A stretch of DNA of 44,976 bases from Thermomonas sp. (GTDB lineage: Bacteria > Pseudomonadota > Gammaproteobacteria > Xanthomonadales > Xanthomonadaceae): positions 1 through 44,976 of the forward strand of contig NZ_JAMQHN010000087.1 of NCBI RefSeq assembly GCF_025993755.1, read 5' to 3'. The stretch's first letter is position 1, and each line of letters opens with the position of its first letter. This document shows, piece by piece, positions 35,568 through 44,919 of the stretch. Made by a program: the position numbers and the translations under genes. Below the pieces are notes generated by a model, which saw only the letters and a program-made list of their open reading frames with translations, was not told the origin of the DNA and made no database searches.

Positions 35568-35840
35568 CTAGAATTTTTCCTTCAGCACCCGCCGAATCTC
35601 GCTTTCGATCGGTTCCTTGAACATCGCCGCGAAGAATCCGAGCTTGGCGTGCACGTGCAATTCGCCCTCGCCCAGCGCGATTTCGCCGTCCACGCCCGGT
35701 CGCGAGAACTGCAGCGCATCGCCTTCCCATGCGTAGTCGATCCCGAACCGCTCGGCGAGTTTGACCGCCACCTCGTCGATGGCCTTTTTCGCCTTTGCAC
35801 GGGTCAGGGAATGGGCGTGCCGGATTTCGATGCGCGACAT
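35568..35840 (-). CDS. Polyhydroxyalkanoic acid system family protein
   Basis: A 90-residue protein starting MSRIEIRHAHSLTRAKAKKA and continuing IDEVAVKLAERFGIDYAWEGDALQFSRPGVDGEI. The pattern (basic N-terminal helix, then beta strands with VDGEIALGEGELHVHAKLG) matches the PHA_gran_rgn family often found near PHA granule genes; molecular role unknown. ATG 35840 is the family-like start; another ATG at 35858 would add six residues. It is divergent from the FHA gene and marks the beginning of a lipid-granule-like region. Confidence 0.85.
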   Translation of the reverse strand: MSRIEIRHAHSLTRAKAKKAIDEVAVKLAERFGIDYAWEGDALQFSRPGVDGEIALGEGELHVHAKLGFFAAMFKEPIESEIRRVLKEKF

Positions 35841-35998
35841 GCGGGGACGGGGCTCCATGACGGGTTGCGGGTTGCCGACGGCTGGCGCCGGCCGGGACTG
35901 GCCCATGCTAGCAGCCCATGACGTTGTTGATGTCAGAGGCTTGACCCTGCCATGAGTTCACTCCGCAGCACCATTCCGACCTGCTAGATTGCGCGACG

Positions 35999-36793
35999 AT
36001 GAAGCATCCGTTCCTGAGATTCTGCGACGACGGCCAGCCCGGCCCGGCCCAGCCCGACTTGGCGCTGGGCGACGGCGTGCTGACCTTCGGGCGCGGAGCC
36101 GCCGGCCAGCTGGCGCCGGTCGATGCCCAGTCGCCGTGGCTGCTGCAGCTGAGCAACGATCGTCGCGGCATCTGGCTGACGGTCGCCGACCAGTTGCGCG
36201 GCGTCCACGTCAACGGCCGCCCGATCCAGCAGGTCGCCATGCTGCGGGCCGGCGACTGCATCCACGTGGCCGGCCGCAAGCTGCTGCTGCTGTCCGACGT
36301 CGATACCAAGCCCACGACCGAAATCGCCCCGCCGCAGGATCCCGCGGCCAGCGTGCGCGTGGTCCTGCGCGGCGTCGGCGGTCGCCACCATGGCCGCAGC
36401 ATCAGCCTCGACCGACCCTGCCGGGTTGGCAGCACCGCAGATGCCGACCTGCGGATCGAAGGCCACGGCATCCTGCCGCAGCACGCCATGATCGAAGAGA
36501 GCAACGGGCAGTTTCTGCTGCACGCAATGAGCGATGCGGTGCAGGTGAACGGCCGGGCGGTGCGCGAGGCCGTGCTGCACGGCGGCGACCAGATCGCATT
36601 CAGTCCGCAGCACCGTTTCCTGCTCGAAGCCCCGCCCGCGCCAGTGCCCCTGCCCCGGAGGATCGATCCCGAGCTGGACGCCGCGCCCATCCCCCCGCAA
36701 CACGGCTGGGCCAGCCGGATCCCGTGGCTGCTGGTGGCCGCCGTGCTGCTGGCAGCCGGTCTGTCGGCGTTGCTCGTGTTCGGGCCGCGCTGA
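35999..36793 (+). CDS. FHA-domain protein with C-terminal membrane anchor
   Basis: A 264-residue protein. Two FHA-like beta-sandwich regions appear: about 24-100 (LTFGRGAAG... GVHVNGRPIQQVAMLRAGDCIHV) and about 120-212 (CRVGSTADADLRIEGHGILPQHAMI ... VQVNGRAVREAVLHGGDQI). The second has the best FHA signature, GS/T-x(n)-H and VNG. A Pro-rich linker precedes a single C-terminal membrane helix (about 240-261). FHA domains bind phosphothreonine; no kinase gene is in the window. It is 67 bp ahead of the patatin gene on the same strand, so the two may act together at the membrane. Confidence 0.8.
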   Translation: MKHPFLRFCDDGQPGPAQPDLALGDGVLTFGRGAAGQLAPVDAQSPWLLQLSNDRRGIWLTVADQLRGVHVNGRPIQQVAMLRAGDCIHVAGRKLLLLSDVDTKPTTEIAPPQDPAASVRVVLRGVGGRHHGRSISLDRPCRVGSTADADLRIEGHGILPQHAMIEESNGQFLLHAMSDAVQVNGRAVREAVLHGGDQIAFSPQHRFLLEAPPAPVPLPRRIDPELDAAPIPPQHGWASRIPWLLVAAVLLAAGLSALLVFGPR

Positions 36794-36860
36794 CGCGCCG
36801 GTCGGGCGCGGACGCATCCGCTCGACTACACTCGGCAAGATCAGCACACGAGGCAAGCGC

Positions 36861-38093
36861 ATGCTTTCGATTCACGCGGCGCGCGATCCGGGGCCGAAAA
36901 AGCGCCATCCGCGCATCGGTCTGGCGATCGCCGGCGGCGGCCCGGTCGGGGCGATGTACGAACTGGGCGTGCTGCGCGCGCTCGAAGAGGCCTGCGAGGG
37001 ACTCGATCTCACCCGCATGGACGGCTACGTCGGGGTCAGCTCGGGCGCCTTCTTCGCCGCCGGCCTGGCCAATCGCATGGACACTGCGGAGCTGTGCCGG
37101 ATTTTCCTCAAGGGCGAATGCGCGGACGTTCCGTTTTCACCGGAAATTTTCCTGCAGCCGGCCTTTCGGGAATACCTCAAGCGCGCCGCGGCAGCGCCCA
37201 AACAGGGCATGCGCCTGCTCCACGACCTGGTCTCCCCGGACACCGGGTCGCGCTGGTCGGAACTGCTCAACCGCCTCGGCGGCCTGATCCCGACCGGCCT
37301 GTTCGACAACGCCCCGGTCGAGCGATTCCTGGGCGAGCTTTTTTCGCACAAGGGCCGCAGCAACGATTTCCGCAAGCTCAAGCGCCCGCTGTTCGTGATC
37401 GCGGTCGATCTGGACAGCAGCGAAACCACCTGTTTCGGCGGCCCGGGCTGGGACGACGTTCCGATCTCGCGCGCAGTTCAGGCCAGCTCGGCCCTGCCCG
37501 GCCTGTACCCGCCGGTCGAGTTGCGCGGTCGCAACTTCGTCGATGGCGCCCTGCGGCGCACCATGCATGCCTCGATCCTGCTCGACCGCGACGTCGATCT
37601 GCTGATCGGCATCAATCCGCTGGTGCCGTTCAATCCGACCCGCGAGGCGGGCCACGCCCGCTTCGGCGATCGCCAGATCGCCCAAGCCGGATTGCCGGGC
37701 GTGCTGTCCCAGACCCTGCGCACCATGCTGCAATCGCGCATGCAGGTGGGACTGGCGCGCTACCCGCAGCGCTACCCGCACATCAACCAGATCGTGTTCG
37801 AACCGAATGCGATCGACCGCGACCTGTTCTACACCAACATCTTCAGTTTCTCGGCACGGCAGCGGATCTCGCAGCTGGGCTACCGCAACACCCTCGACGA
37901 CCTTCGCAACCGGCGCGAGTTGCTGGAGCCGCTGCTGGCACGGCACGGCATCGGCCTGCGCGAACAGGTACTGGCCGATTCCCACCGCGTTCTGCTCGAC
38001 GCACTGCCCGCCGGCGTGCATCGAACCGAAACGACGGCCCGGCTTGCACGCAATCTGGACGACATCGAGCACCTTCTTCAGCGCGTGGTGTGA
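36861..38093 (+). CDS. Patatin-like phospholipase/lipid acyl hydrolase
   Basis: A 410-residue cytoplasmic hydrolase with a Ser-Asp dyad. The oxyanion loop is GGGPVGAMYELGVLRAL (about residues 25-41), the nucleophile motif is GVSSG (about 56-60, GxSxG) and the dyad Asp lies in VDGALRR (near residue 228). No signal peptide. Patatin-like enzymes release fatty acids from phospholipids or neutral lipids, and relatives are found on storage granules. Flanked by an FHA membrane protein and a phasin, which suggests a role in mobilising granule lipid; this is inference. Confidence 0.88.
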   Translation: MLSIHAARDPGPKKRHPRIGLAIAGGGPVGAMYELGVLRALEEACEGLDLTRMDGYVGVSSGAFFAAGLANRMDTAELCRIFLKGECADVPFSPEIFLQPAFREYLKRAAAAPKQGMRLLHDLVSPDTGSRWSELLNRLGGLIPTGLFDNAPVERFLGELFSHKGRSNDFRKLKRPLFVIAVDLDSSETTCFGGPGWDDVPISRAVQASSALPGLYPPVELRGRNFVDGALRRTMHASILLDRDVDLLIGINPLVPFNPTREAGHARFGDRQIAQAGLPGVLSQTLRTMLQSRMQVGLARYPQRYPHINQIVFEPNAIDRDLFYTNIFSFSARQRISQLGYRNTLDDLRNRRELLEPLLARHGIGLREQVLADSHRVLLDALPAGVHRTETTARLARNLDDIEHLLQRVV

Positions 38094-38171
38094 ATGCTCT
38101 AGACGAAGTGCGGATCCTGTGCCGCAATCCTTCCAACCAACTACGCGTCGCCGCGACGCAGGGAAACCGCT

Positions 38172-38765
38172 ATGGCCAAGCTCAAGAAATCCGCCAGCAA
38201 GAAGCCGACCGGCACCAGCAAGCCCGGGGCGCAGTCCGATGCCCCGCGCATGAACCGGTCGATCACCGAATCCGCACAGCAGATCTGGCTGGCCGGCATG
38301 GGCGCCTTCAATCGCGCGCAGGCCGAAGGCGGACGCCTGTTCGAAAGTCTGGTTCGCGACGGCCTGTCGCTGGAACAGACCGCGCGCCGCTTTGCCGGCA
38401 GCCGCGTCACCGGCGTGAAGGGCGTGGTCGAAGGCCGCGTCGGACAGGCCAAGGAACGTGCCGTCGACACCTGGGACAAGCTGGAAAAGGTGTTCGAGGA
38501 ACGCGTCCAGCGGGCGCTGGTCAAGCTCGGCGTCCCCGGTCGCGACGACCTCAATGCCCTGACCGAGCGCGTCGAGCGCCTGACCGCCGCCCTGCACAAG
38601 CTTGGCGCCAAGCCGAGTGCGGGCACTGCGAAGAAGACATCCAAGACAGATCGTCCCGCCACCGCCAAAAAAGCCACGAGCAAGCCTGCCAAGGCTGCCA
38701 GGGCGGCCAAGGCCCGGAAGCCTGCCGCCGGAAAGTCGGCCAAGTCGGGCGCCGCTGCCGAGTAA
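38172..38765 (+). CDS. Phasin-family granule-associated protein with histone-like tail
   Basis: A 197-residue protein. Residues about 35-140 match the PHA granule-associated phasin family (QQIWLAGMGAFNRAQAEGGRLFESLVRDG, then an amphipathic helix KLEKVFEERVQRALVKLGVP). Residues about 140-197 are a Lys/Ala/Pro-rich tail (AKKATSKPAKAARAAKA) like that of Pseudomonas PhaF, which links granules to the nucleoid. A second basic patch is at the N-terminus. Starts 78 bp after the patatin gene in the same direction. A short paralogue lies at 41108. Confidence 0.88.
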   Translation: MAKLKKSASKKPTGTSKPGAQSDAPRMNRSITESAQQIWLAGMGAFNRAQAEGGRLFESLVRDGLSLEQTARRFAGSRVTGVKGVVEGRVGQAKERAVDTWDKLEKVFEERVQRALVKLGVPGRDDLNALTERVERLTAALHKLGAKPSAGTAKKTSKTDRPATAKKATSKPAKAARAAKARKPAAGKSAKSGAAAE

Positions 38766-38809
38766 GCGTCAGCCCATCCAACCGGGACGCGTTGAACGAC
38801 CGCGTCACG

Positions 38810-38980
38810 GAACGGGAAATCCAGAATGACGGCACGGTCGCTTTCCCGTTCGACGCAGTGCTGACCGGATCAGTGTTGCCCTGCTCCGCTGACCCATTCG
38901 TGGCTGTTTCGTTGCGCATCGGTAAAGTCCCGCCAGTCCGCCCCTGTGGCACCCCCTCCCTTGCCATACGGACTGGCGGG
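38810..38980. other. Intergenic region with two perfect hairpins
   Basis: The 295-bp gap after the phasin gene (38766-39060) contains GAACGGGAAA (38810-38819) pairing with TTTCCCGTTC (38842-38851), and CCCGCCAGTCCG (38929-38940) pairing with CGGACTGGCGGG (38969-38980). The second is a perfect 12-bp stem with a 28-base loop. Neither has a good U-tract. I see no gene in this gap; TATAGT at 39025-39030 could be a -10 box for the next gene. Confidence 0.5.
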
Positions 38981-39060
38981 CATCGTTTCGCCGGGCGATC
39001 CGCCCAACGGTGGATGCCACGCGGTATAGTTGCGCTCGGCTCACAGCAACCGTTCAGCGC

Positions 39061-40050
39061 ATGATCCCTTTCTTGATCGCCCTGCTCGTCTTTGTCGGCG
39101 TCGGTGCCGGCTTGACCGTCTGGCTCCGTGGTGGCAAGAACGCTGCGCCGCAGTCCGAGCCCGTGCGCCGCGGCGCTGAGCAACTCGCCCAGCTGCGCTG
39201 GCGCGATTTTGCCCGTCTGGTGCTGCAGGCCATGCACGGCCGCGGCTACAACCCGGTGATCGGGCCGGAAGATCCGCCCGACGGGATTCCCAGCGATGGC
39301 AGCGACATCCTGCTCAAGCGCGCGGACGAACTCGCGCTGCTGTCCTGCCAGTACGGCACCGGGGCGACGGTCGCGCCGCAGGTTGTCGCCTCCGCTGCAA
39401 CCAAGGCCTCCTTGCACGGCGCCAGCCGTGTGATCGTGGTGACGCCGGGGCGTTTCGAAGGCGACATCGCGGATATCGTGGCCAATCATCAGGTCGAACT
39501 GATCGATGGCGAAACCCTGTGGCCGGAAGTGCGTCCCTACGTTGCGCGCCCGGAAGAACCTGTGCCGGTCACATCACCTTCGGCAGCCATTCCAGCCAAG
39601 ACCCAGGCCTTCGTCTGGCTCGGCGCAGCGCTGGCCGGCACCCTGGCCTTCGTGGCTGTGGACGGCCTCACGCAAAGCCCCGACAGCCTTCCTTCCGAGG
39701 CCGTTGCACCGCAAGCGAACACGGCCCCGCCGGCAGCCCAGCGACCTGCCGCCGCACCCTCCGCCGACGAACGTCCGGCCCAGCCGGGCGTGCCGGCCGA
39801 CACCCGCGAACTCGACCAGCGCCGAAAGGAAGCCGCCAACGCGGTTGCCACCCTGTTCGGCGTCAGCCGTGCGCTGTGGTCCAGCCAATCGACCCTGATG
39901 GTCTATCTCTCGTCGGAAAACGCGGATCCGTTCAACGACATCTGCCCGCTGCTCGAACAGTATCCGGAACTGGCCGCCTCGCGCATCCAGCTGCAGCCGC
40001 CGGAGGGCAGCGACAAACAGGTCCGCTTCAAGCAGTGCCGCGCCTACTGA
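39061..40050 (+). CDS. Membrane-anchored Mrr-like (restriction endonuclease-fold) protein
   Basis: A 329-residue protein. Residues 2-22 and about 181-203 are membrane segments. Between them, about 40-155, lies an Mrr-type nuclease-like domain: WRDFARLVLQAMHGRGY, then SDGSDILLKRADELALLSCQYG and ASRVIVVTPGRFEGDIADIV. In active members the last strand ends QxK; here it reads SCQYG, so the catalytic Lys appears to be missing and the domain may be inactive. The C-terminal part (after a Pro/Ala linker) is a small domain with two Cys. Such proteins occur in xanthomonads; function unknown. Convergent with the next gene (66 bp gap with an ACGGCCG/CGGCCGT hairpin at 40050-40074). Confidence 0.7.
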   Translation: MIPFLIALLVFVGVGAGLTVWLRGGKNAAPQSEPVRRGAEQLAQLRWRDFARLVLQAMHGRGYNPVIGPEDPPDGIPSDGSDILLKRADELALLSCQYGTGATVAPQVVASAATKASLHGASRVIVVTPGRFEGDIADIVANHQVELIDGETLWPEVRPYVARPEEPVPVTSPSAAIPAKTQAFVWLGAALAGTLAFVAVDGLTQSPDSLPSEAVAPQANTAPPAAQRPAAAPSADERPAQPGVPADTRELDQRRKEAANAVATLFGVSRALWSSQSTLMVYLSSENADPFNDICPLLEQYPELAASRIQLQPPEGSDKQVRFKQCRAY

Positions 40051-40116
40051 CGGCCGTTCCGGTCCGCCGGCCGTACAGCGGTTGATCGGAGCATCATCTT
40101 CCGACGGGCAGGCGCG

Positions 40117-40974
40117 TCATTCGATCTGCGCGCGCGCCCAGGCCGCGTCCAGCGTCTCCATCGCGTCCAGCGGCTTGCACTTGCCAGCCTTTTCGTAGGC
40201 TTCCGCAGCCGCGTCCTCGTTGCGCCGGGCATCGAGCAGCAACAGCAGGTTGCCGTGTTCGACATGGGCAATCGGTGAGGCCGGCGTGAGTTTGAGCGCT
40301 TCGCGGATGTGTTTGTCGGCTTCTGACGCCTTCGCGCCATAGGTCAGCCCGCCGATCATCGCGCCAATCTTGCCGACGATTTCGGCGTGATAGAGCGCCA
40401 GCGCCATGTGCGCCTCGGCGTGCTTGGGCGCCAGTTCCAGCGCGGCATCCAGCGAGGCGCGCACCTTGCCGGCGATCCCCAGCTTGAGCGCCTTGGCGAT
40501 CGAAATTCCCTGGCTGTAACGGCCCAGCGCGAAGGCATGCCGGTAATGGCTGTTGGCTTCCTCCGGAAGCGCCTTGATCGCCGCTTCCGCAAGCTTTCCT
40601 CCCAGCTCGTGGCGGCGCAGGCGCTCGGCTTCATCCTCGACCAGATAGGTCGCGTGGATTCCAAGCGCCTTGACCGCCACCGACGCGCCCACCGGCCCCA
40701 GCGCCTCGCCAGACTCGAACGCCTGCTGGAAATCCCCGCGATGGAAGGCACGCCAGGCATCCTGCAATGTAGCGGCCAGCGCTTCGGCATCCAGTTTCGG
40801 TGCGGATTTTCCGGCAGCCTTGAGCAGCGCGGCGGCACGCTTGGCGTCCGGGTACGGTTCGCAATCGCCGGCATGCAGCTTTGGCCAGGCCTTCTTCAAG
40901 GCATCGCCGGCGAACTGGAAGGCTTTGGCATCGTGGGGGAAAGGCGCCCAGGCGGACGATTTCTTCGCGGCCAT
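40117..40974 (-). CDS. Helical-repeat protein of unknown function (TPR/Sel1-like)
   Basis: A 285-residue soluble protein with no signal peptide. It consists of alternating helices with TPR-like spacing, for example AALLKAAGKSAPKLDAEALAA, DAWRAFHRGDFQQAFESGEA, ASLDAALELAPKHAEAHMALAL and AIAHVEHGNLLLLLDARR-type turns. I do not recognise a named family, though proteins of this kind occur in xanthomonads. It is divergent from the short phasin-like gene, and both genes share a mirrored 11-bp leader element containing the ribosome site. Confidence 0.7.
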   Translation of the reverse strand: MAAKKSSAWAPFPHDAKAFQFAGDALKKAWPKLHAGDCEPYPDAKRAAALLKAAGKSAPKLDAEALAATLQDAWRAFHRGDFQQAFESGEALGPVGASVAVKALGIHATYLVEDEAERLRRHELGGKLAEAAIKALPEEANSHYRHAFALGRYSQGISIAKALKLGIAGKVRASLDAALELAPKHAEAHMALALYHAEIVGKIGAMIGGLTYGAKASEADKHIREALKLTPASPIAHVEHGNLLLLLDARRNEDAAAEAYEKAGKCKPLDAMETLDAAWARAQIE

Positions 40975-40982
40975 GTCGTGGA

Positions 40983-41102
40983 ACTCCGGGGTCAGGTGTG
41001 GGTGTGAGCATCGGGCCAGTCGGGTGCAATGGCAAGTGCAGGGGTAGTGTGATTGCTCGACATCCGGGCGGCATGCTGGCCCCAATTTCCCGACCCCGGA
41101 GT
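40983..41102. promoter_or_regulatory. Divergent leader region with a perfect 11-bp inverted repeat
   Basis: ACTCCGGGGTC (40983-40993) and GACCCCGGAGT (41092-41102) are exact reverse complements placed just before the start codons of the two divergent genes. In both directions the element reads GACCCCGGAGT and supplies the GGAG ribosome site. The intervening 98 bp should hold both promoters; I see no strong consensus box. Confidence 0.6.
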
Positions 41103-41107
41103 CCGTC

Positions 41108-41533
41108 ATGGCCGCCCGCAAGAACACGAAGACCCGCACTCCTCGCGCTGAAGCCCTCGATCTCAATCCGCGCCATCTGTGGCTGGCCGCGCTTGGCGCC
41201 GTCGTTGCCGCACGCCGCAGCGCGGCGGGCGCGATCCACGAAGCCGGCCTGCGCACCCGGCTCGCGTCAGCCGACGCCCGGGACGCCGTGCGCAAGCTCA
41301 ACGCCGAGGCCCGCGCCGGGATCGAGACCCTGAGCGATCGCGTCCAGCCCCTCCTGTGCCCGGTTGGCCGCACGGTACAGGCCGGCATCGCACCGATCGC
41401 GCAACGTGTCGGGATCCAGCTCGGCCCGCAGCACACCGCGCGCCGCAAGGCGGCACCCAAGGCGACGCCGAAGGCGGCGCGGCGCACGGTTCGCAAGTCA
41501 GCCCCGGCACGCCGCAGCAAGCGCGCGGGTTGA
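41108..41533 (+). CDS. Short phasin-like protein with arginine/lysine-rich tail
   Basis: A 141-residue basic protein. The central part (about 18-100) resembles the N-terminal half of the phasin at 38172 (LWLAALGAVVAARRSAAGA, then an amphipathic stretch to GIQLGPQH). The C-terminal 40 residues are Ala/Lys/Arg-rich (ARRKAAPKATPKAARRTV), again PhaF-like. The ATG at 41108 follows GGAG by six bases. A likely granule surface or nucleoid-linking protein. The family match is weaker than for the longer phasin. Confidence 0.65.
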   Translation: MAARKNTKTRTPRAEALDLNPRHLWLAALGAVVAARRSAAGAIHEAGLRTRLASADARDAVRKLNAEARAGIETLSDRVQPLLCPVGRTVQAGIAPIAQRVGIQLGPQHTARRKAAPKATPKAARRTVRKSAPARRSKRAG

Positions 41534-41555
41534 GTCGCCCCGTAGCAATCACAAC

Positions 41556-41669
41556 GGCTTGTCGTCCTGTCAGTGTGGCGGGCGACCATAGGCGGCATGG
41601 ATGCCGCCTATGAGCCTACATGGACGTATTCACGGCGTGTCGCCCGCCATGCTGGCAGGGCGACAAGCC
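41556..41669. repeat. Large palindromic repeat, copy A
   Basis: Outer arms at 41556-41586 and 41639-41669 are reverse complements in 27 of 31 positions. Inside is a perfect 12-bp stem, CATAGGCGGCAT (41587-41598) and ATGCCGCCTATG (41601-41612). The inner 70 bp recur in inverted orientation at 44841-44905. The element follows the short phasin gene and precedes the 3' end of the TetR gene, so it may terminate both. Confidence 0.85.
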
Positions 41670-41718
41670 CCGATCGCTCATCGATCGACCCCCTCCAGAG
41701 CAGATACCCAGCCCGGTT

Positions 41719-42345
41719 TCAGTCGAGATAGGCGCCGGTCAGCGTGTTCAGATGCAGGCGTTCGGCGTCGCGCAGGAACGGCGCGATCGACAGCATCACC
41801 TGCACGATGCCATCGCGGATCGACTTGCGCTCGTCGTGTTCGCCGCGCGCAGCCGCATAGTTCAGCCAGAAGGTCGCGATCACCAGGATATTGGTGGCCG
41901 CGGCATCCAGCTCGGCCCGGGAAGCGCGCATGATGCCGGCCTGCAGCAGGCCGCGCATGACGTCGCGCGAACGTTCGTCGGCACGCTTGAGGATGCGCGC
42001 AAAGCGCATCCGCAGCCGGCGGTTGCGGGTCAGGATGTCGACCAGATCGCGGTACAGGAAGCGATAGTCCCAGATGCACTCGAACACCAGGTGCAGCTGC
42101 AGCCAGACGTCCTCCAGCCCCGGCAGCCGCCCCTCCGGCGCGGCCAGCGCCGCGTCCATGCGCACCTCGTAGCCGGCGAACAGCTGTTCGATGATGTCGT
42201 CCTTGTTGCGGAAGTGGTAGTACAGGTTGCCCGGGCTGATCTCCAGCTCGTCGGCAATGTGGTTGGTGGTGACGTTCGGCTCGCCCTGCGCATTGAACAT
42301 CGACAGCGAAGCGTCGAGGATGCGCTGGCGGGTCTGTCTGGCCAC
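41719..42345 (-). CDS. TetR-family transcriptional regulator (PhaD-like)
   Basis: A 208-residue regulator with an N-terminal TetR helix-turn-helix (MARQTRQRILDASLSMFNAQG, then TTNHIADELEISPGNLYYHF and RNKDDIIEQLF). The C-terminal ligand domain is all-helical. The sequence style resembles PhaD-type regulators of PHA/fatty acid genes, whose ligand is an acyl-CoA. GTG 42345 is used: it lies 11 bp after the stop of the acyl-CoA-binding protein gene and gives the family N-terminus. Together with that gene it is divergent from the fatty acyl-CoA reductase, a typical position for a local regulator. Confidence 0.88.
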   Translation of the reverse strand: MARQTRQRILDASLSMFNAQGEPNVTTNHIADELEISPGNLYYHFRNKDDIIEQLFAGYEVRMDAALAAPEGRLPGLEDVWLQLHLVFECIWDYRFLYRDLVDILTRNRRLRMRFARILKRADERSRDVMRGLLQAGIMRASRAELDAAATNILVIATFWLNYAAARGEHDERKSIRDGIVQVMLSIAPFLRDAERLHLNTLTGAYLD

Positions 42346-42356
42346 GTCCGATCCGC

Positions 42357-42614
42357 TCAGGCCGTCAGTTTCTTCACCAGATCGATGTATTTCTGCATCG
42401 CCTGATCCTGCGCGGTGCCCTTGAGCTTGCCCCAGGCTTCGTACTTGGCGGTCGCCACGAAATCGAAGAAACCCGGCTTCGGGCCGCTGACGTCGCCCTC
42501 GCTGCCCTGCTTGTAGAGTGCGTACAGGCGCAGCAAGGTGTCGTTGTCCGGCCGCTCCTTGAGCCCCTTGATGGCTTCCGACGCTTGTTCGAACGCTGCC
42601 TTGAGATCGGCCAT
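42357..42614 (-). CDS. Acyl-CoA-binding protein
   Basis: An 85-residue ACBP, full length for the family: a four-helix bundle that binds medium- to long-chain acyl-CoA and delivers it to enzymes. Diagnostic stretches are LRLYALYKQGSEGDV, the KPGFFDFVATAKYEAW region and YIDLVKKL at the end. ATG 42614. Bacterial ACBP is uncommon and often sits near lipid enzymes. It starts 150 bp from the fatty acyl-CoA reductase in the opposite direction and shares a transcript with the TetR gene (11-bp gap). Confidence 0.95.
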   Translation of the reverse strand: MADLKAAFEQASEAIKGLKERPDNDTLLRLYALYKQGSEGDVSGPKPGFFDFVATAKYEAWGKLKGTAQDQAMQKYIDLVKKLTA

Positions 42615-42764
42615 GACCCAACTCCGTGCCTGGATGCGGCCATGACACCACGCGCCGCGGCAGGGGTCAATACGCCACGGCATTGTCGCGAAGCCTGCGC
42701 TCTGGCAACGTATGCAACACGACCACGGGTCGGATTCAACTCAATCGGGGGGCAGGGACAGGTC

Positions 42765-44756
42765 ATGAGCTATTTCGTCACCGGCGGCACCGGATTCATC
42801 GGTCGGCATCTGATCGATCTCCTCCTCAAGCGCAAGGGCACCATCCACGTGCTGGTGCGCAAGGCGTCGATGAAGAAATTCACCGCGCTGGCGAAGAAGC
42901 ATGGTTGGGATCCCAAACGCGTGCTGGCGGTGGCCGGCGACATGACCGCACCGCGCTGCGGCCTGAGCGCCGCGCAGGTGCGCAGCCTCGGCGGCGGCAA
43001 GATCAAGCATTTCTTCCATCTGGCCGCGATCTACGACATGGCCGCCGATGCCGAATCGCAGCGCGTGGCCAATGTCGACGGCACCCAGCACGCGCTCGAC
43101 CTCGCCGCCGCGCTCAAGGCCGGTTGCTTCCACCACGCCAGTTCGATCGCCGCTGCCGGCATGTATCCGGGCGTGTTCCGCGAGGACATGTTCGAGGAGG
43201 CCGAGGGGCTGAACAATCCCTACCTGCGCACCAAGCACGATTCAGAAGGGCTGGTGCGCGCCGAGAAGCGCGTCAAGTGGCGGATCTACCGCCCCGGCAT
43301 GGTGGTCGGCCACTCGCAGACCGGCGAAATCGACAAGATCGACGGCCCGTACTACTTCTTCACCTTCCTCAAGAAACTGCGCGCGACGCTGCCGCAGTGG
43401 ATGCCGACGCTGGGCATCGAGGGCGGCCGCATCAACCTGGTTCCGGTCGATTTCGTCGCCGCCGCGATGGATCACATCGCCCACAAGCCGCGCCTCGACG
43501 GCCGCTGCTTCCATCTCACCGACCCGGAGCCGATGCGCGCCGGAGAGGTGCTCAACACCTTTGCCCGGGCCGGCCACGCCCCGGAAATGACCATGCGCAT
43601 CGACGCGCGCATGTTCGCCTTCCTGCCCGGCAGCGTGCGCGCCGCGGTCGGCAGCCTGCCGCCGGTACGCCGTTTCGTCGGCATGCTGCTGCGCGACTTC
43701 CGGATCCCGAAGGACGTTCTCGGCTTCATCACCTACCCGACCCGCTTCGACAACCGCGAGGCCGAGCGCGCGCTTAAGGGCAGCGGGATTTCCGTGCCGC
43801 CGCTGGAGTCCTACGCATGGCGGCTGTGGGATTACTGGGAGCGCCATCTCGACCCGGACCTGTTCGTCGACCACTCGCTCAAGGGCAAGGTGCGCGGCAA
43901 GGTGGTGGTCATCACCGGCGGTTCCTCCGGCATCGGCCTGTCCACCGCGCAGAAAGTCGCGGCGGCGGGCGCGACCACCATCATCGTGGCGCGCCGCGAG
44001 GACGAACTGTTCGCCGCGCGCGATGCCATGATCGCCGCCGGCGGCAAGGTGTTCGCCTACACCGCCGATCTCGCCGACCTAGCCGATTGCGACCGGTTGG
44101 TGGCGACCGTGCTGGAAAAGCACGGACACGTCGATGTTCTGGTCAACAACGCCGGCCGCTCGATCAGGCGTTCGATCGCGCTCAGCTTCGATCGCTTCCA
44201 CGATTTCGAGCGCACCATGCAGCTCAACTACTTCGGCAGCCTGCGCCTGATCATGGGCTTCATGCCGAAGATGATCGAACGCCGCAAAGGCCACATCATC
44301 AACATCAGTTCGATCGGCGTGCTGGCGAACTCGCCGCGCTTCTCCGCCTACGTGGCGTCGAAGGCCGCGCTGGACGCCTTCAGCCGTTGCGCACAGGGCG
44401 AACTGTCCGGCAAGCACATTGCCTTCACCACCATCAACATGCCGCTGGTGAAGACGCCGATGATCGCGCCGACCAAGATGTACGACAGCGTGCCGACGCT
44501 CACCCCCGACGAGGCCGCCGACCTGGTGGTCAAGGGCATCATCGAGCGTCCGAGCCGGATCGCCACCCGCCTCGGCGTTTTCGCCGCGCTGGTCAACGCG
44601 GTCGCGCCGAAAGCCTACGAAGTGGTGATGAGCACCGCGTTCGAACTGTTCCCCGATTCCTCGGCGGCCAAGGGCGAAGGCAAGTCGGGCAAGGACGAAA
44701 TCCCCAGCCAGGAACAGATCGCCTTCGCGGCGCTGATGCGCGGGGTGCACTGGTAG
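42765..44756 (+). CDS. Two-domain fatty acyl-CoA reductase (Marinobacter FAR type), alcohol-forming
   Basis: A 663-residue fusion. The N-terminal extended SDR domain (about 1-370) has GGTGFIG at residues 7-13 and a YxxxK pair Y153/K157 (YLRTK), with RIYRPGMVVGHSQTGEIDKID. The C-terminal classical SDR domain (about 378-663) has TGGSSGIG at 384-391, the NNAGRS loop, Ser515 region and Y529/K533 (YVASK). By recollection, length, domain order and long stretches such as SFDRFHDFERTMQLNYFGS match the Marinobacter fatty acyl-CoA reductase, which reduces acyl-CoA through the aldehyde to fatty alcohol with NADPH. No signal peptide. Divergent from ACBP and TetR genes, which probably supply substrate and control. 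ATG 42765 gives the complete first Rossmann strand. Confidence 0.9.
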   Translation: MSYFVTGGTGFIGRHLIDLLLKRKGTIHVLVRKASMKKFTALAKKHGWDPKRVLAVAGDMTAPRCGLSAAQVRSLGGGKIKHFFHLAAIYDMAADAESQRVANVDGTQHALDLAAALKAGCFHHASSIAAAGMYPGVFREDMFEEAEGLNNPYLRTKHDSEGLVRAEKRVKWRIYRPGMVVGHSQTGEIDKIDGPYYFFTFLKKLRATLPQWMPTLGIEGGRINLVPVDFVAAAMDHIAHKPRLDGRCFHLTDPEPMRAGEVLNTFARAGHAPEMTMRIDARMFAFLPGSVRAAVGSLPPVRRFVGMLLRDFRIPKDVLGFITYPTRFDNREAERALKGSGISVPPLESYAWRLWDYWERHLDPDLFVDHSLKGKVRGKVVVITGGSSGIGLSTAQKVAAAGATTIIVARREDELFAARDAMIAAGGKVFAYTADLADLADCDRLVATVLEKHGHVDVLVNNAGRSIRRSIALSFDRFHDFERTMQLNYFGSLRLIMGFMPKMIERRKGHIINISSIGVLANSPRFSAYVASKAALDAFSRCAQGELSGKHIAFTTINMPLVKTPMIAPTKMYDSVPTLTPDEAADLVVKGIIERPSRIATRLGVFAALVNAVAPKAYEVVMSTAFELFPDSSAAKGEGKSGKDEIPSQEQIAFAALMRGVHW

Positions 44757-44832: not shown

Positions 44833-44919
44833 GCGGCCTTGCGGGCGACACGCCGTGAATACGTCCATGTAGGCTCGCAGGCGGCATCCATGCCGCCGAT
44901 GGTCGCGTATGGGGCCGCC
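44833..44919. repeat. Large palindromic repeat, copy B (inverted relative to copy A)
   Basis: The segment 44841-44905 is the reverse complement of the inner part of copy A (41580-41648) with only a few differences, including the inner stem GGCGGCAT (44880-44887) and ATGCCGCC (44890-44897). Outer pairing uses GCGGCC (44833-44838) and GGCCGC (44914-44919). It lies 77 bp after the reductase stop and probably marks the end of that transcript. I see no gene in 44757-44976; a minus-strand open frame there is repeat sequence. Confidence 0.85.

Follow-up and report, generated by a model that had tools for sequence, protein, structure and literature searches.

A conserved fatty acyl-CoA reductase, phasin and patatin locus of Thermomonas with a probable role in wax-ester storage

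Gene content of the locus

The window analysed here is the whole contig C76 (44,976 bases) of the 2.69-Mb draft genome of a Thermomonas species. In about 9 kb it encodes a fatty acyl-CoA reductase (FAR), an acyl-CoA-binding protein (ACBP), a patatin-like hydrolase, a TetR-family regulator, a phasin and a small protein of the polyhydroxyalkanoate (PHA) system, which together make up a locus probably devoted to wax-ester storage. Genomes, contigs, loci and families are cited by our own numbers (G, C, L and f, respectively) where they have to be told apart. The genes which the initial annotation had named in this stretch were all confirmed as real by Pfam and NCBIfam models, while two conserved neighbours, encoding an Mrr_cat-domain protein and a TPR-like protein, were missing from its list. 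The features are as follows.

35568..35840, minus strand: PHA_gran_rgn small protein (TIGR02610/PF09650; start inferred)
35999..36793, plus strand: FHA-domain protein with a hydrophobic stretch at the C-terminus (PF00498, 41.3 bits)
36861..38093, plus strand: patatin-like hydrolase with the motifs GGGPVG, GVSSG and DGA (PF01734, 96.6 bits)
38172..38765, plus strand: PhaF-like phasin, a PF05597 domain followed by a basic tail rich in Lys, Ala and Pro (PF05597/TIGR01837)
39010..40050, plus strand: Mrr_cat-domain protein with an N-terminal hydrophobic stretch (Pfam; present in 37 of 80 FAR regions)
40117..40974, minus strand: TPR-like protein, a neighbour kept in relatives (weak TPR matches in the window protein; start inferred)
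41108..41533, plus strand: PH2, probable decayed short phasin with a basic tail (profile test and position)
41719..42345, minus strand: TetR-family regulator (PF00440 and PF13972; start inferred)
42357..42614, minus strand: ACBP, divergent from FAR (PF00887, 99.6 bits; start inferred)
42765..44756, plus strand: FAR, 663 residues, NAD_binding_4 and adh_short domains (NF005539)

The 663-residue reductase reported initially was corroborated by a full-length match to NF005539/PRK07201 (991.8 bits, cut-off 549; residues 1–662 of the 662-residue query) and by two intact motif pairs of short-chain dehydrogenases/reductases (SDR), GGTGFIG at residue 7 with YLRTK at 153 and GGSSGIG at 385 with YVASK at 529. 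Residues 449–663 share 58.6% identity with an Acinetobacter SDR, and the best 60 of 407 matches to PDB entries span a single domain each. Membership in this family suggests that FAR is an alcohol-forming fatty acyl-CoA reductase; the objection that the reductase might group apart from characterised enzymes of this kind was addressed through the family model, which it fits from end to end. Plasmid records contained no close FAR (six records, top identity 43.9%).

The phasin encoded at 38172–38765 has 197 residues, scores 144.4 bits with PF05597 (cut-off 28.8) and 111.4 bits with TIGR01837, and is the sole PF05597 match (E ≤ 0.001) of the whole genome. PhaF of Pseudomonas putida is presumably a member of the same family, PF05597. 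Two phasin-like proteins had been proposed for the locus; the second, PH2, gave no phasin match with Pfam. Against a profile built from the short phasins of relatives (15 sequences), the core of PH2 reached 15.5 bits (E 3e-4). Of 16 such short-phasin cores, 13 scored above the top value obtained with 500 shuffles (8.8 bits) and three did not. Because of these profile tests and because PH2 sits where families f3, f7, f9, f10 and f12 carry a PF05597 phasin (many of them in the order TPR<, phasin>, TetR<, ACBP<, FAR>, arrowheads giving orientation), PH2 is probably a decayed phasin.

The PHA_gran_rgn protein scores above cut-off with both PF09650 (99.7 bits) and TIGR02610 (94.5 bits), and PF09650 is counted as one of the phasin families in the accessible part of PMC5658603. 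Among proteins of solved structure, PlpD (E 2.5e-12) is the single relative of the patatin-like protein at E ≤ 0.01. The designation of the regulator as PhaD-like was not supported by a model match: its 21 NCBIfam matches up to E 1 include no family named PhaD, PhaD sequences themselves not having been compared, and the solved structures most similar to it are of TetR proteins to which no function is assigned by name.

The TetR, ACBP and FAR genes are flanked by an inverted pair of repeats.

41582..41652, plus strand: 71-nt repeat with hairpin, first arm of the inverted pair
44836..44906, minus strand: 71-nt repeat, other arm of the pair, 93% complementary

Similar copies of this intergenic repeat were found in L116, L050, L056 and L066/L174. 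A promoter scan of the window returned no promoter-like site (0.9 expected), a terminator scan returned seven terminator-like sites (6.0 expected), and no Rfam family matched anywhere in the window.

Synthases encoded elsewhere in the genome

That neither PhaC nor a wax ester synthase is encoded holds for the window but not for the genome, where a search identified a wax ester synthase/DGAT (WS/DGAT) and a class III PhaE–PhaC pair on other contigs; the lack of a synthase is thereby ruled out as a trait of the genome. WS/DGAT is represented by a single match (L001:1387-2931; catalytic domain C80:20774-21568), which scores 422.7 bits with TIGR02946 (cut-off 309.95) and carries HHCYADG, an instance of the HHxxxDG motif, at residue 168. 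It has two solved relatives only, one of them being 6chj, which we take to be the structure of a Marinobacter-type WS/DGAT. On contig C152, a class III PhaE (158.7 bits, cut-off 154.95) is directly followed by PhaC (525.5 bits, cut-off 365.3). As PF07167, the PhaC_N family of class I/II PhaC, had no match in the genome and the class III model alone detects PhaC, reliance on a single PhaC model would mislead. The genome thus encodes PhaC as well as the PF05597 phasin, and with WS/DGAT and PhaE–PhaC both wax esters and PHA are possible in principle.

Co-occurrence across the order

FAR, phasin, PhaC, WS/DGAT, the patatin of the window and ACBP were sought in 119 genomes comprising the genome itself and genomes of its genus, family and order. 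A genome was counted as FAR-positive if the identity of its match reached about 60%, fragments included (e.g. G011, G065, G104); weaker SDR matches occurred in every one of the 119 genomes. PhaC was taken as absent where neither TIGR01836 at E ≤ 1e-20 nor PF07167 at E ≤ 1e-5 matched, patatin required an ortholog-level match (E ≤ 1e-20), ACBP was tallied from the match list of its search, and a genome without a listed positive was scored negative; the resulting totals match those given by the search programs.

FAR and WS/DGAT were concordant in all 119 genomes, 88 of which have both and 31 neither. The patatin was found in 83 of the 88 FAR-positive genomes (absent from G084, G094, G100, G107 and G117) and in none of the 31 others; this group, confined to FAR-positive genomes among the 119, is a candidate group of neutral-lipid hydrolases. 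ACBP occurred in 84 of the 88 (absent from G038, G047, G094 and G110) and in five of the 31 (G043, G045, G098, G105 and G111). The PF05597 phasin was present in every FAR-positive genome, with PhaC (67/67) as well as without a PhaC match (21/21), and in 13 of the 31 FAR-less genomes, all of which were among the 25 with PhaC (0/6 without). Fisher tests that do not account for relatedness gave p = 2e-13 for phasin against FAR and p = 0.24 for phasin against PhaC. Seventeen of the 21 FAR-positive genomes lacking a PhaC match are at least 90% complete (not so G023, G079, G110 and G116). In families f7 and f8 (12 genomes without a PhaC match), the phasin follows FAR in all 12 (nine with both, three with neither), and three named strains combine FAR, WS/DGAT and phasin with no PhaC match: Silanimonas lenta DSM 16282 (L182), Wenzhouxiangella sp. 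XN79A (L224) and Wenzhouxiangella sp. 15190 (L225). A complete PHA operon elsewhere in the genome had been considered as the possible owner of the phasins; a class III PhaE–PhaC pair does exist, but the phasin tracks FAR and WS/DGAT better than PhaC across the 119 genomes.

An explanation of the FAR distribution by a single event is weakened by two observations. Both FAR states occur within each of the families f1, f7, f8 and f12, and a tree of serC (38 rows), which depicts one gene and is not a species tree, requires at least six changes of FAR label, four of them forced by well-supported branches. Loci entered this tree if their serC match spanned 330 residues or more; ten of its rows are FAR-less, all with a phasin locus, FAR-less genomes without phasin being left out.

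Gene order

The surroundings of FAR were compared in 80 of the 88 FAR-positive genomes, over stretches of 3 to 20 kb (left out: G000, G012, G014, G023, G038, G047, G065 and G118). The genes usually follow the order TPR<, (phasin 2)>, TetR<, ACBP<, FAR>, (Mrr_cat)<, phasin<, patatin<, followed by PHA_gran_rgn and FHA. The order is thus conserved in relatives, and the objection that it might not be, raised together with the initial annotation, falls away. Distances to FAR were determined by tblastn with the proteins of the window (E ≤ 1e-4). Of the 80 regions, 69 extend 5 kb or more to either side; among these, ACBP and TetR were each no farther than 5 kb from FAR in 63, phasin in 53 and patatin in 44. 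Of 80 named regions, 52 have flanks of that length, and the corresponding counts for ACBP, TetR, phasin and patatin are 46, 48, 46 and 37. Phasin and FAR, found together in 88 genomes, share one contig in 78 and are no more than 5 kb apart in 71 of these. For phasin and patatin, which 83 genomes have in common, the same distance holds in 71 of 74 contig-sharing genomes, and this pair can persist apart from FAR (e.g. G108, G114). One contig carries both FAR and WS/DGAT in 38 genomes, and in 10 of these no more than 10 kb lies between them. These contig-sharing counts do not cover some additional copies of WS/DGAT, nor the second fragment where a single phasin gave two.

Relative to other relatives in which both blocks are adjacent, the block from TPR to FAR, compared between positions 39010–44756 of the window and L036–L115, is inverted in place in the window and in the congeners G019, G016, G006, G021, G015 and G005.

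Three FAR regions contain both WS/DGAT and a phasin, as confirmed with Pfam: L225 from Wenzhouxiangella sp. 15190, L226 from Betaproteobacteria bacterium GR16-43 and L228 from a metagenome-assembled genome of Chromatiales. In the betaproteobacterial loci L221, L222 and L226 phasin, TetR and TPR are near FAR, patatin too in L221 and L222, and ACBP is 6–10 kb off in L221 and L226. FAR combined with TetR and phasin, often with ACBP and patatin as well, is a recurrent arrangement throughout the order and is also seen in three loci of Betaproteobacteria. A class-level sample contained NF005539 in 12 of 369 genomes, two of these 12 belonging to the order of the window.

Natural losses and FAR-less phasin regions

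The congener G013 (95% complete) gave no match for FAR, WS/DGAT, patatin or ACBP and keeps PhaC (E 4.8e-167) and TetR. Its phasin (L116, G013:C50) covers positions 5–62 of the 126 profile positions, in an open reading frame of about 65 residues from ATG compared with 197 in the window, and has a basic tail. The 13 FAR-less phasin regions, G013 included, contain FHA (12), PHA_gran_rgn (10), serC (10) and Mrr_cat (8) and never patatin. PHA_gran_rgn adjoins the phasin in nine of its ten regions and lies about 8.7 kb off in the tenth; as these ten still have it, PHA_gran_rgn is not specific to a wax module.

The phasins of FAR-less loci are also more diverged. At similar serC identity, their median identity to the phasin of the window is 45% (seven loci) versus 62% for FAR-positive loci (17; p = 6e-6). 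The same comparison revealed a weaker shift for PHA_gran_rgn (p = 0.013) and Mrr_cat (p = 0.011) and none for FHA (p = 1.0). The test was limited to loci of family f1 with a serC identity of 55–72% over a match of at least 200 residues, and its seven FAR-less loci are not all independent.

These regions bear on the explanation that phasin, PHA_gran_rgn and TetR constitute a class III PHA system, which an unrelated wax module of FAR, ACBP and patatin merely adjoins in an old storage neighbourhood. We regard this as unlikely. The PhaE–PhaC pair of the genome and the company of FHA, PHA_gran_rgn, serC and Mrr_cat that the phasin keeps in most of the FAR-less phasin regions with PhaC agree with it, and so does the TetR gene retained in G013; the same congener, however, has lost about half of the phasin domain in spite of its PhaC, and no phasin is missing from the 21 FAR-positive genomes without a PhaC match. 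It is likewise at odds with the association of the phasin with FAR rather than with PhaC, uncorrected for relatedness as the test values are, and with a divergence that is marked in the FAR-less phasins, weaker in PHA_gran_rgn and Mrr_cat and absent from FHA. By the behaviour of the phasin in G013 and in those 21 genomes, we also judge it unlikely that it is simply part of a PHA operon.

Proposed function

We consider it probable, with good though not full confidence, that the locus serves wax-ester storage and that its PhaF-like phasin coats neutral-lipid inclusions, probably being shared with PHA granules. Gene content, conserved order, co-occurrence and co-loss are observed; all enzymatic, structural and regulatory roles we infer from established families. 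ACBP would deliver acyl-CoA to the pathway and FAR would convert it into fatty alcohol, in two steps to judge from domain relatives, the aldehyde presumably being formed by the C-terminal half and then reduced to alcohol by the N-terminal half. WS/DGAT, encoded on another contig, would esterify this alcohol, using another molecule of acyl-CoA. The wax would gather in inclusions bearing the PF05597 phasin of the locus at their surface, and the basic PhaF-like tail of this protein may tether them to the nucleoid. The patatin, a candidate hydrolase of wax ester or neutral lipid, would hydrolyse the stored lipid; as the most FAR-specific partner after WS/DGAT it is the natural candidate for this step. 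TetR, which adjoins ACBP and is divergent from FAR, probably controls the divergent ACBP/FAR pair and the cluster. Where PhaC is present, the same phasin probably serves PHA granules as well.

The initial annotation had suggested fatty alcohol or wax ester inclusions coated with PHA-type phasins. Since WS/DGAT is present in each FAR-positive genome examined, wax esters are the more likely product than free fatty alcohol; the coating of wax inclusions by the phasin is likewise a proposal here.

Several findings weigh against this proposal. The phasin is not exclusive to wax, since 13 of the 25 FAR-less and WS/DGAT-less genomes with PhaC retain it (one of them, G013, in truncated form) and the genome studied here has PhaE–PhaC itself; sharing with PHA granules is likely in genomes with PhaC. 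Phasin and FAR are more than 5 kb apart or on separate contigs in 17 of the 88 FAR-positive genomes; of these 88, five are without patatin and four without ACBP, and the Fisher values ignore phylogeny. Of the ten class-level FAR regions outside the order, one (L142) has phasin, patatin, TetR and TPR near FAR, another (L143) PHA_gran_rgn and TetR, and eight none of the queried neighbours, although several of these regions end at a contig edge and tblastn with the sequence of the window could miss diverged phasins. WS/DGAT, finally, could also make triacylglycerol.

A general neutral-lipid locus, in which WS/DGAT mainly forms triacylglycerol and the alcohol made by FAR is put to another use (envelope wax or export), is in our estimate improbable: WS/DGAT enzymes are described as producing both wax esters and triacylglycerol, and ACBP is proposed to aid triacylglycerol storage (PMC10351704), but in the 119 genomes WS/DGAT never occurs without FAR nor FAR without WS/DGAT, in keeping with wax ester as the one product common to both.

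Beyond the wax-ester storage favoured for this locus, a more general proposal can be made tentatively, to which we give slightly less than an even chance. Throughout the order, in Thermomonas-, Lysobacter- and Wenzhouxiangella-like bacteria and related families, PF05597 phasins would chiefly coat wax-ester droplets and tether them to the nucleoid, PHA granules being secondary; they would be the equivalent, in bacteria, of the proteins that coat lipid droplets, with a lipase and a reductase dedicated to the same purpose encoded alongside. It is PHA that defines phasins, and one review still tabulates phasin under PHA droplets and TadA/HBHA under wax-ester and triacylglycerol droplets (PMC8478749). 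If the proposal is true, the presence of a phasin is no longer evidence for PHA, and coat proteins known mainly from bioplastic granules can serve oil-like droplets too. Such loci would then provide a tractable model for bacterial lipid-droplet coats, and the patatin would be a strong candidate for wax-ester mobilisation. The question is open to direct test in the three named strains that gave no PhaC match, Silanimonas lenta DSM 16282, Wenzhouxiangella sp. XN79A and Wenzhouxiangella sp. 15190.

Comparison with known systems

The wax-ester pathway as such is known; as far as our searches of the open-access literature show, the unit of phasin, patatin, ACBP and FAR and its independence from PhaC have not been described. 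Titles and abstracts in open-access PMC yielded none linking phasins to a FAR/wax-ester locus, PMC10351704 alone mentioning such genes together, and the available text of PMC2667194, PMC6355812 and PMC8478749 mentions 'phasin' and 'wax ester' without linking them. Thermomonas is counted as a potential PHA accumulator on account of phaC (PMC9003127).

Marinobacter enzymes reduce acyl-CoA to alcohol, according to the accessible passages of PMC4096523 and PMC3522743. The Marinobacter wax-ester pathway, comprising the reductases MAQU_2507/MAQU_2220 and WS/DGAT, resembles the system described here in its expected chemistry, in the two-domain FAR and in the presence of WS/DGAT in the genome. It differs in that FAR here adjoins ACBP, TetR, patatin and phasins.

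A second comparison is with WS/DGAT scaffolds from sediment metagenomes (2023), which carry ACBP and an SDR 49.5–61.9% identical to MAQU_2507; two Burkholderiales-like scaffolds add a PHA-system protein and another a phasin, and in two alphaproteobacterial scaffolds WS/DGAT lies beside genes of PHA metabolism (PMC10351704, in the sections available). ACBP, SDR and in some scaffolds a phasin or PHA-system protein are shared with our locus, and WS/DGAT with its genome. That study differs in taking the phasin as part of PHA metabolism, its main text is without the words patatin, TetR and PhaC, and the sections available hold no co-occurrence test.

A precedent for a phasin on lipid inclusions is GA14 of Rhodococcus ruber, a phasin that was also isolated from such inclusions (PMC5658603, citing Kalscheuer 2001); the organism is unrelated, and the passage draws no genetic link to FAR or WS/DGAT. 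In P. putida, the accessible text of PMC3574117 describes PhaF as consisting of an N-terminal granule-binding and a C-terminal basic DNA-binding domain, with a role in granule segregation. Of the PhaF/PhaI pair, PhaF shares both its N-terminal domain and its basic C-terminal tail with the phasin of the window. Pseudomonas phasins are, however, encoded beside phaC1ZC2D (PMC5658603, same part), whereas the phasin described here is tied to FAR and WS/DGAT and is kept where PhaC is not found.

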